Origin: an uncultured bacterium | GTDB lineage: Bacteria; Patescibacteriota; Gracilibacteria; Absconditabacterales; Absconditicoccaceae | Length of the DNA: 64,000 nt | Direction: 5' to 3' | NCBI GenBank assembly: GCA_947169045.1 | Contig: CAMVOC010000006.1 | Coordinates: 1 to 64,000 of the forward strand | In this document: in pieces, positions 28,554-32,765 of the stretch | Numbering within the stretch: the stretch's first letter is position 1 | How the letters are laid out: each line of letters begins with the position of its first letter | Position numbers and translations under genes: made by a program | The notes under the pieces: generated by a model | The model's database searches: none | What the model saw: only the letters and a program-made list of their open reading frames with translations | What the model was told of the DNA's origin: nothing

Positions 28554-29957
28554 TTAGCTATTGGGATTTTCTCCCACTAATTTAAATTCTCCAGCTCCGA
28601 CGATTTGAATTGGGAGTATTGTACCTGGAAGGATGGTAGTTTCTGCGGGATTTGAAGAGGCCGGGATGATCATTTGTTTCATATTGTCAATGTATCCCGT
28701 GAGAGAGCCATCTGCCCCGATTTCATTGATAAGAACTTTCCTGGTGCGTCAGATTTCTTTCTGATTATTTTCTCTACTGATTTGTTTCAAGAGCTCGTTC
28801 ATCTTATTTCGTCTTGCGTGTTTTACTTTGTAAGGAATGTCGTCTGGATACTGTTTTGTGGCGAACGTTCCTGGACGTGGAGAGTAAATCCCCATATAAA
28901 TCATATCAAATCTTCCATATTCTACCAATTGTAAGCTTTTTTCAAAGTCCTCCTCCGTCTCTCCAGGGAATCCTAAAATCATGTCCGTCGTAATCGAAAT
29001 TTCTCTCTTTAATCCTCTGATTTTATCAATAAACGTGTAGCAATCCTGTGCAGAATATCCACGAAACATCTTTTTTAGAACAGCAGAAGAACCTGATTGA
29101 AACGGGATATGGATATGAGGACACAGTTTTTCCTCTTGTTCATGCAGAGCTAGTAATTCAGGACTATAAAATGTCGGATATGGCGAAGTATAACGGAGTC
29201 GTTCTAGTCCTTCTAATTTTAAGATTTCTTGTACAATTGTGACGAAATCTGGGTGTTTATTCACGATTTGTCCTAGAAGAGTGATTTCTTTCGCTCCGTT
29301 TGCTAGGTATTGTTTAGCTTCTGCGATGATATTTTCTACAGAGAAATATCTTTCTCTCCCGCGAGCATATGGTACAATACAGTACGCACAAAATTGGTTA
29401 CATCAGGTAGAAATTGGTACATACGCAGAAGTAGCATGTTTGTTCATGCTGGCGTTTTCGTTGGGAATAATTTTTTCGTATTCGTCGACGAGTTCGTTGG
29501 GATAGTTCAGATTTTTATATCCTATTTTTTCGAGGATGAGCGGCAGTTTCCCCACGTCATCAATACGAAAAAAGAGCTCTAAATTAGGATATGTCTGATG
29601 TAGCGTATGTCGGAGCGGATTAAAATCCTCGTTGATGTACCATTGTTGCCCTGTTGCGTGAGTTCTATTTTCTTTAGTTCAAGAGAATTCTGCTTTAGAA
29701 GCCGATTTTTTTAAATTATGATTCACCATACAACCTGTAATTCGGATTTTTTGATGAGCAGGAATATTTTTGAGGGCTCCTGTAATTTTATCTTCAGATT
29801 TTTGGCGTACCGAGCAAGTATCAAAAATGAGAATATCAGCGTTTTCTTCCTTTTCAGAATAAGAAAAACCACAGTTGAGAAGCACTGCTTTAATCCTCGC
29901 AGAATCGGCATAATTCATTTGGCAGCCGAGCGTGATAATATGGAAAGAGGTCGTAAT
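28554..29957 (-). CDS. miaB: MiaB, tRNA-2-methylthio-N6-isopentenyladenosine synthase
   Basis: This is a 467-residue radical SAM methylthiotransferase. The N-terminal MTTase domain has Cys at residues 12 (LGCQMN), ~46 (DTCSVRQ) and ~74 (TGCMVN). The radical SAM CxxxCxxC reads TGCNQFCAYC with a TGA-coded Gly, and a C-terminal TRAM domain (residues ~400-460) ends the protein. It adds methylthio to i6A37 of tRNA, the product of MiaA, also in this window. No ATG, GTG or TTG lies in frame upstream of the first Cys before a stop; ATT at 29957-29955 puts that Cys at residue 12, as in E. coli MiaB. I therefore propose an ATT start. Confidence 0.9.
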
Positions 29958-29982: not shown

Positions 29983-30053
29983 CAGGCGGTGAGAGGATCG
30001 AACTCCCGATAACAGTTCCGAAGACTGCTGTGTTACCACTACACCAACCACCC
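29983..30053 (-). tRNA. tRNA with anticodon UCG, predicted tRNA-Trp (reads CGA/CGG)
   Basis: A complete cloverleaf of 71 nt: acceptor GGGTGGT/ACCGCCT (two G-U pairs), D stem GTGT/ACAC, anticodon stem GCAGT/ACTGT with loop CTTCGGA, T stem GGGAG/CTCTC with loop TTCGATC, no encoded CCA. The anticodon is UCG, formally Arg. But the discriminator is G73, as in bacterial tRNA-Trp, and D-loop position 20 is U, whereas bacterial tRNA-Arg needs A20. The T-arm GGGAGTTCGA..CTCTC is like that of E. coli tRNA-Trp. CGA/CGG codons in this window fall on conserved Trp sites. I infer Trp charging; Arg cannot be excluded without a full tRNA set. Confidence 0.85.
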
Positions 30054-30126: not shown

Positions 30127-30972
30127 TTATTTTTCGAGTAATTTCATAACTCCTGTTTCGATCAGGTTTTTTATCTCTTGTTTTTGTTGTACTGGTTGTG
30201 TGTCTAGAAACGTTAACAGAAGCTGTTTCGCGTGATTCGTCTGCTCTTTTTTGGTAATAGAAGCAAAGGCCTCAAAAGGAGCGTGCCAATGAGCAAAAAT
30301 TTGCAATAATTCCCAATCAGAACTTGAAATTTGCAATGTCGCTTTGTCACCTTGACGATTAAGAGAAGACTGGAGGTAGATTCCTTGAGATTGTAGGTTC
30401 GCGATCCTTTTTTCTATATTCGTCTGCAATCAAAAATAGCTTCCAAACAGAGGAATTTGGATTCTTATTCCATTGAGCTGATCGCCTTTTGCAAGAAATT
30501 TCCCATATAGTAACGTAAGCATATACATATAGCTTATTTCCTGCTCTATTGATGTATCTGCTGGAGAGTCAAGAAGAGCGAGATCTGTCGTTATGACTCC
30601 TTTTGGCGAATGAGCAAATGAAACCGGAATTTGCAACTGGGAAAGTTTATCATTGAGCGTCGCAACTTCTTTGATTGGAAAGTAGGGTAAAAATGCGTAT
30701 TTTCCCCCAGTTTCTTCATCAAATGCGAGAAACTGTTCACAGGCGAGACGGGCATATTCAGGAGCAAATGTCATCTCTTCAAAGACTTTACGTTGATGTA
30801 ATGCAAAAACTTCCATGGTGGAACCTAGATTCTTGGATTCTATCAGCTTTATTTCTTTTTTGTGAAGTGTAAAAAAAAGCTGGTTTGGCTCGGAAATTTG
30901 CAATCAAGAGAGCGTATGAGTATAGAGTTTCCCTGTATCAAGAGCGGGATCTTTAATCGTCAGGAGAGGCAT
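30127..30972 (-). CDS. Unknown protein (281 residues), possibly LAGLIDADG-like
   Basis: The frame runs from ATG 30972 to TAA 30127 with TGA as Gly at 30904 and 30430. Two related halves can be guessed: ARLACEQFLAFDEETGGKYAFLPYFP and MLTLLYGKFLAKGDQLNG followed by IRIQIPLFGSYFG, in the style of LAGLIDADG folds where a helix ends in Gly-Asp/Lys-Gly and a beta-strand follows. The match is weak. No membrane segment is seen. It lies between cca and the tRNA gene on the same strand, so a tRNA-related role is an attractive but unproven idea. Confidence 0.6.
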
Positions 30973-30998: not shown

Positions 30999-32765
30999 TT
31001 ATTTCGATTCTCCTCTATTTTTCAACCAATTTTTTACGAATACTTCTAGTTCTTTCGCGGTATTTCTCGTCTCTACATCATTGAGTACTCGATCAAACAG
31101 TGCTTTTAGGAGTTCTCCAACGAGTGGTCCAGGTCTCATGCCATATTTCTGTATTAAGTCGTTCCCATTTATCAGAAGGTCTTTCATGGTAAACTGCCCT
31201 TCCTCTTCATTCAGCTTTTTTAGGATTGTTTTGAGTTCGTAGCTTTCTGTCAGATCTCAAGAGCTTTGTAGAGGGTTGAATTGTCCCTTGCGATCAGCAA
31301 TATTGATATCAAGCAAATTATCGACCATTTCGAATCCCTTTTCGCTAAGCAAATGTCTGAGTTTTTTTTCTCGATTTTTAGGGTTTGCATTAAGGATTTC
31401 CCCTGGTGTATGATGCTCGGAAATATATCGCGCAATGGTCTCAATTTCTTTGTTGGAAAATCCTAGTGCTTTGAAGTCTGTTTTCATTAGTTCAGGTCAG
31501 CAATTTCTATGATTGCTAGGTCATGCAATAATTTCACGGATTTTCTCTTTATCTCCCTTTGCCTTGGCGTATCCTGCGTATTGTATCACTTTCCCTACGT
31601 CGTGATAGAGCATCGCGAAACGCACAAGATAATCAGTATTTATCTCTTGTAAAGCATGTAAAGCGAGCATCGTATGTGTATATACATCAAATGCATGATA
31701 ACGAATAGGTTGCTCTACGTGAATAGTAGCAAAAAGAGCAGGAAAAAGCTGAGCTAAGATTCCGCTTGTTTCGAGCAAGACGACGAAATTGAAAGGGTCT
31801 CCTTTTTGGAATGCTTTTGTAAGTTCATCTTTGATGCGTTCTTTAGCCACGTGCATCAGCAGTGGGACATTACGCAAGATGGCTTCTCGAGTCGTAGCGG
31901 TATAATCAAATAGCAATTCATGACGGCGACTTAACGTAGTATTCATGATATTCACTATTCTGATGGCTCTGATGACTCTCAGCGCATCTTCACTAAATCT
32001 CTGATTAGCATCTCCAACGGTCTCAAGTTTTCTCGACATCAGAGATTGAAGTCCCTGTTGAGGATCTATGAGAATGCGGAAAGCGTATGCATCTTCATTC
32101 CCTTTTGTCTCGGTGAGGCACACTGCCTGTGCTGTCTCAATTAAATATCTGCAAAAAACTTCATCAAACTTAGCATTTGGAAAGGTCTTTGTAATATATT
32201 CGTGATGCTGTAAAATGAGAAGATTAAGATCTTTGAGGTAGACATATCCCTCTTTGGCAAGCAGCGTTTCAAGATGTGACTGCATGGATGCTTGTATGGC
32301 AGTTGAGTCTGGGAGATCTATTTTTCTTTGTGTCGGAAGTGAAAAATAGTACATTGCATTGATATTAAAGTCGCGTCTCTGAGAATCGAGAATCAGATCG
32401 TTACTTCGTTGAATTTCTTCAGGATGACGAAAATCTCCATAACTACCTTCGGTGCGAAGTGGAGTAAGTTGGTATTCAATTTCTCCATCTGCAGGATAGC
32501 CTTCTTTTTTGGCAGAGCTTTCAATGAAGGTACTCGTCCCAAACTTCTCAGTGATAAAGCTGGAAATCTCTGATTTATCAAAATGCTCGTACAGCTCTAC
32601 TGGATCTCCTGCCATTGTAAAATCGATATCCATCGGAGTCTTTGTGATTTCCAGGAGAACATCGCGAATGCAACCACCAACGAGAAAAAGATTCTGATTT
32701 TTACTTCTTTTTTGTAAAAATTGTTGATGTGCGTCAAGGATTGAAAGATTGTGAAAGTACGGCAT
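30999..32765 (-). CDS. cca: CCA tRNA nucleotidyltransferase (HD-domain type)
   Basis: At 588 residues it is long for the family (usually 400-480). The head domain has LVGGCIRD (catalytic loop) and the DxD of MDIDFTMAGD, then SQRRDFNINAM and RVIRAIR. An HD domain follows (YHAFDVYTHTM and LYHDVGK), then an extra helical C-terminus. Four TGA codons from 31521 to 31257 are Gly; stopping at the first would lose ~170 residues. The enzyme builds or repairs the CCA end of tRNAs, and the tRNA in this window lacks an encoded CCA. CGA in EEIQ-(CGA)-SND sits where relatives have an aromatic. It shares a compact divergent promoter with ruvB. Confidence 0.93.

Follow-up and report, generated by a model that had tools for sequence, protein, structure and literature searches.

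The 64,000-nucleotide stretch of DNA analysed here (the window) carries a genuine, intact tRNA gene with the anticodon UCG at positions 29983 to 30053 of the minus strand. Its product very probably decodes CGA in the genetic code of the Absconditabacteria and would be charged by TrpRS. The finding is a correct rediscovery, as the reassignment and the UCG and CCG tRNAs have already been published for the clade; what is new here is confined to the high usage of CGA, the family-wide survey and the conserved neighbour of the gene. An earlier note on this DNA had located the tRNA correctly but omitted the strand.

The gene is the only tRNA gene of the window detected by ARAGORN (anticodon tcg) and by Rfam search, scoring 57.6 bits against RF00005 (cut-off 29) with an E value of 1.9e-11. 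The complete cloverleaf described in the earlier note was borne out by the sequence, with an acceptor stem of 7 bp that includes G1:U72 and U4:G69, a D stem of 4 bp, and anticodon and T stems of 5 bp each. The anticodon loop reads CUUCGGA and the T loop TTCGATC. Anticodon positions 34 to 36 lie at 30019 to 30021 on the minus strand (sequence and ARAGORN) and are followed by G37, the discriminator base G73 is at 29983 on the same strand, and base 20 of the D-loop is U; anticodon, G73 and U20 had all been read rightly. No CCA end is encoded, G73 being followed by a run of T. Free folding was unexceptional (z = -0.8), and the case for the gene therefore rests on the covariance model together with the 23 orthologous genes in relatives. 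Two features that mark a Trp-accepting tRNA are present, G73 and the weaker element A/G1:U72 in the form G1:U72, and the A20 of bacterial tRNA-Arg is absent. The standard anticodon CCA of tRNA-Trp is replaced by UCG, with which it has C35 alone in common, and the molecule is thus classed as a known reassigned Trp-type tRNA and not as a standard tRNA-Trp.

The assembly totals 873 kb in 13 contigs, of which the window is C6, with a completeness of 93.5% and a contamination of 1.9%. The long frames of the window open once UGA is read as Gly, UGA aligned to Gly in 66 of 121 cases in this genome and a tRNA-Gly(UCA) is present; the named loci closest to MiaB belong mostly to SR1/Absconditabacteria, at 64-69% identity. 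By its sequence the host is a code-25 (UGA=Gly) Absconditabacteria/SR1 genome. A separate tRNA-Trp(CCA) is encoded elsewhere, and the tRNA-Arg set comprises GCG, UCU and CCU, each with A20 and A73. No Arg-type tRNA with UCG or CCG was found in the tRNA set of the genome, so that both the ordinary tRNA-Trp and the gap among arginine tRNAs for which the earlier note had suggested looking were encountered. Nor is the UCG tRNA the only CGN-reading tRNA-Arg, an outcome that would have spoken against the proposal: tRNA-Arg(GCG) covers CGU and CGC. As no ACG tRNA was found in the set either, the UCG tRNA is the only one found with full pairing to CGA; at 93.5% completeness, a further tRNA may have been missed. 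The decoding of CGG is shared by a second tRNA of the Trp type, which has the anticodon CCG, A1:U72, G73 and U20 and had not been foreseen.

Twenty-four UCG tRNAs were recovered from the family, including the 23 orthologues in other genomes, and all were of the Trp type. G73 was present in every one of them and in 20 of 20 CCG tRNAs, and A/G1:U72 in nearly all, three orthologues having G1:C72 instead of G1:U72. Six family genomes appeared to be without a UCG tRNA in a first pattern search, but in five of these the covariance model recovered it, its loop reading TTCGGC; only in G009, an incomplete genome, was it not recovered by pattern and covariance-model searches. The UCG tRNAs of seven relatives of the same class outside the family are of the Arg type, with A20, G1:C/U72 and mostly A73. 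In distances calculated after masking of the anticodon, and leaving aside the UCG and CCG tRNAs themselves, the tRNA-Trp of relatives came closest (0.36), with tRNA-Arg(UCG) at 0.47. Descent from tRNA-Arg is disfavoured by these distances, which suggest that the UCG tRNA derives from a copied tRNA-Trp with an altered anticodon, a tree of 70 columns being too short for proof.

Two further genomes have tRNA sets of note. G035, a class relative outside the family in which UGA is also read as Gly, has a CCG tRNA with A1:U72, G73 and apparently A20 (L408 1331-1407, C5), and no UCG tRNA was found in it; this set bears on the meaning of CGG in the Gracilibacteria. In the complete genome G011 all CGN codons are rare, with CGA at 6.7 and CGU at 8.7 per 10,000, although both Trp-type tRNAs, UCG and CCG, have been retained.

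The meaning of the two codons was assessed independently of the tRNA evidence, from codon columns covering approximately 600 kb of the genome, compared with G040 (standard code, same class) and G002 (same genus). Overlapping frames were removed before the final counts, and Trp columns were those coded by UGG in the compared genome. The ratio of Trp to Arg columns for CGA was 57:5 against G040 and 74:2 against G002, close to that of the UGG control (81:5 and 74:1) and opposite to that of the AGA control (2:401 and 0:332); arginine is mostly encoded by AGA. CGG is a rare codon and yielded nine decisive columns, all Trp (3:0 and 6:0; 9:0 combined). A first count in which CGG still appeared to mean Arg was rejected, as many of its columns were antisense shadow frames. 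Per 10,000 aligned codons, CGA occurred 45 to 63 times and UGG 50 to 65 times, CGA making up approximately half of the Trp codons examined (45 against 50 UGG per 10,000). In the sigma-70 motif YATWWI the two W are encoded by CGG-CGA, and in the LeuRS motif YYRWTQW by CGG and CGA. These alignments argue strongly that CGA is read as Trp in this genome, and CGG probably likewise. The reassignment of both codons that the earlier note had proposed is accordingly well founded for CGA and, for CGG, founded on few codons, and its view of the UCG tRNA as the decoder needed for this reassignment is supported by the tRNA set and the codon columns.

The same columns bear on whether CGA and CGG might be read ambiguously, as Trp with some Arg, through partial charging by ArgRS. 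Some CGA columns do face Arg (five against G040 and two against G002) and C35 is common to arginine tRNAs, but UGG has an equal Arg background (five and one), so that the CGA columns show no surplus of Arg and such a reading is very unlikely. Still less probable is drift in an ordinary tRNA-Arg(UCG), with A20 lost, G73 acquired and CGA continuing to mean Arg. ARAGORN labels the gene tRNA-Arg, from its anticodon, and G73 also occurs in the Arg-type UCG tRNA of one class relative, G025; however, the UCG tRNAs of the family lack the A20 pattern of arginine tRNAs, the body of the tRNA is closer to tRNA-Trp than to tRNA-Arg, and the CGA columns, Trp and not Arg, refute this explanation. An origin of the window as contamination, or as mobile DNA whose code is its own and not that of the genome, could be entertained for a binned assembly with 1.9% contamination. 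Its likelihood is negligible, given that the Trp signal of the window is matched by that of many other contigs and that 23 other genomes have this tRNA as well.

For the Trp-type UCG tRNA to decode CGA, it would have to be recognised by the TrpRS of the organism. One TrpRS gene was found in the genome and no second one, and the enzyme must therefore serve all three tRNAs (CCA, UCG and CCG). Anticodon positions 34 and 36 matter for bacterial TrpRS, and UCG differs from CCA at both, a point that counts against such recognition. The single TrpRS would charge the UCG and CCG tRNAs by way of C35, G73 and the R1:U72 pair, tolerating U34 and G36 in the UCG tRNA, from which the loss of A20 would keep ArgRS away. 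U34 would allow pairing with CGA, and wobble pairing with CGG, while CGU and CGC would remain Arg through tRNA-Arg(GCG). Comparison of 18 TrpRS sequences from the family with 12 from outside identified family-specific residues, including, in the numbering of this genome, M112 (Ala outside), R198 beside KMSKS and Y322 near the C-terminus, and the TrpRS of this genome has a short insertion near residues 120-125 (L076). These residues and the insertion are candidates for adaptation to three anticodons, as leads only. G017 has two full-length TrpRS genes (C1:8115 and C5:255139), other family genomes with a match having one.

The earlier note had placed the tRNA beside miaB, cca and an unknown gene. 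The neighbours are as described, all on the minus strand: a miaB-like radical SAM methylthiotransferase at 28554 to 29918 (Pfam Radical_SAM/UPF0004/TRAM), cca, the CCA-adding enzyme, at 30999 to 32765 (Pfam PolyA_pol/HD), and between the tRNA and cca, directly upstream of the tRNA, an unannotated protein of 281 amino acids (P0002) at 30127 to 30972. Four CGA codons occur in the miaB-like gene and five in cca. The adjacency of miaB and cca carries no meaning, since it is not conserved: miaB adjoins the UCG tRNA only in this genome and G010, and no tRNA was present near miaB in 21 related loci. A conserved linkage of the tRNA to either gene was thus rejected, both being incidental.

The conserved neighbour of the UCG tRNA is instead the 281-residue LAGLIDADG/intein-like protein. 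A single copy occurs in 22 of the 25 genomes of the family, the only match outside the family being marginal. In approximately 16 of these genomes its gene is found directly upstream of the UCG tRNA, on the same strand, and in a few it is unlinked. Neither Pfam (at an E value of 0.001) nor NCBIfam yielded a match to the protein. The structure predicted for it (pLDDT 93) has a HINT/LAGLIDADG-like fold and resembles the LAGLIDADG endonucleases encoded by inteins and, to a lesser degree, WhiA; in sequence, the second LAGLIDADG-like helix seems to be without its acidic residue. The protein is possibly a domesticated homing endonuclease. That it is domesticated, probably non-cutting and involved in expressing or maintaining the tRNA behind the codon reassignment is unlikely. 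No copy was detected in G016 and G022, both of which have the UCG tRNA, and the protein is therefore unlikely to be needed for decoding.

CGA and CGG were predicted to encode Trp throughout the Absconditabacteria by Shulgin & Eddy (eLife 2021; PMC8629427), who described tRNAs with the anticodons UCG and CCG and the same identity features in SR1 bacterium Aalborg_AAW-1, and a 2026 paper (PMC13092985) treats this code as given. The present genome agrees with that code in clade, codons, the pair of Trp-type tRNAs, identity elements and UGA=Gly background: it belongs to a UGA=Gly lineage, has CGA and CGG at Trp positions, and both of its tRNAs carry G73 and lack A20. CGA usage is approximately 45 per 10,000 aligned codons here and below 37 in all species of PMC8629427, the latter over Pfam-aligned codons, so that the denominators differ. 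A Trp-type tRNA bearing an arginine anticodon is also found in Anaerococcus and the RFN20 Bacilli, where, unlike here, only CGG is reassigned and CGA stays Arg through an ICG tRNA (PMC8629427).

NCBI translation table 25 agrees with this genome in reading UGA as Gly, but its assignment of CGA and CGG to Arg is incorrect for this organism. Annotation with table 25 turns approximately half of the Trp codons of the organism into Arg and so introduces errors at highly conserved positions into the proteins, structures and searches derived from it. As CGA is used about as often as UGG, the genus is convenient for testing how one TrpRS serves three anticodons (CCA, UCG and CCG).
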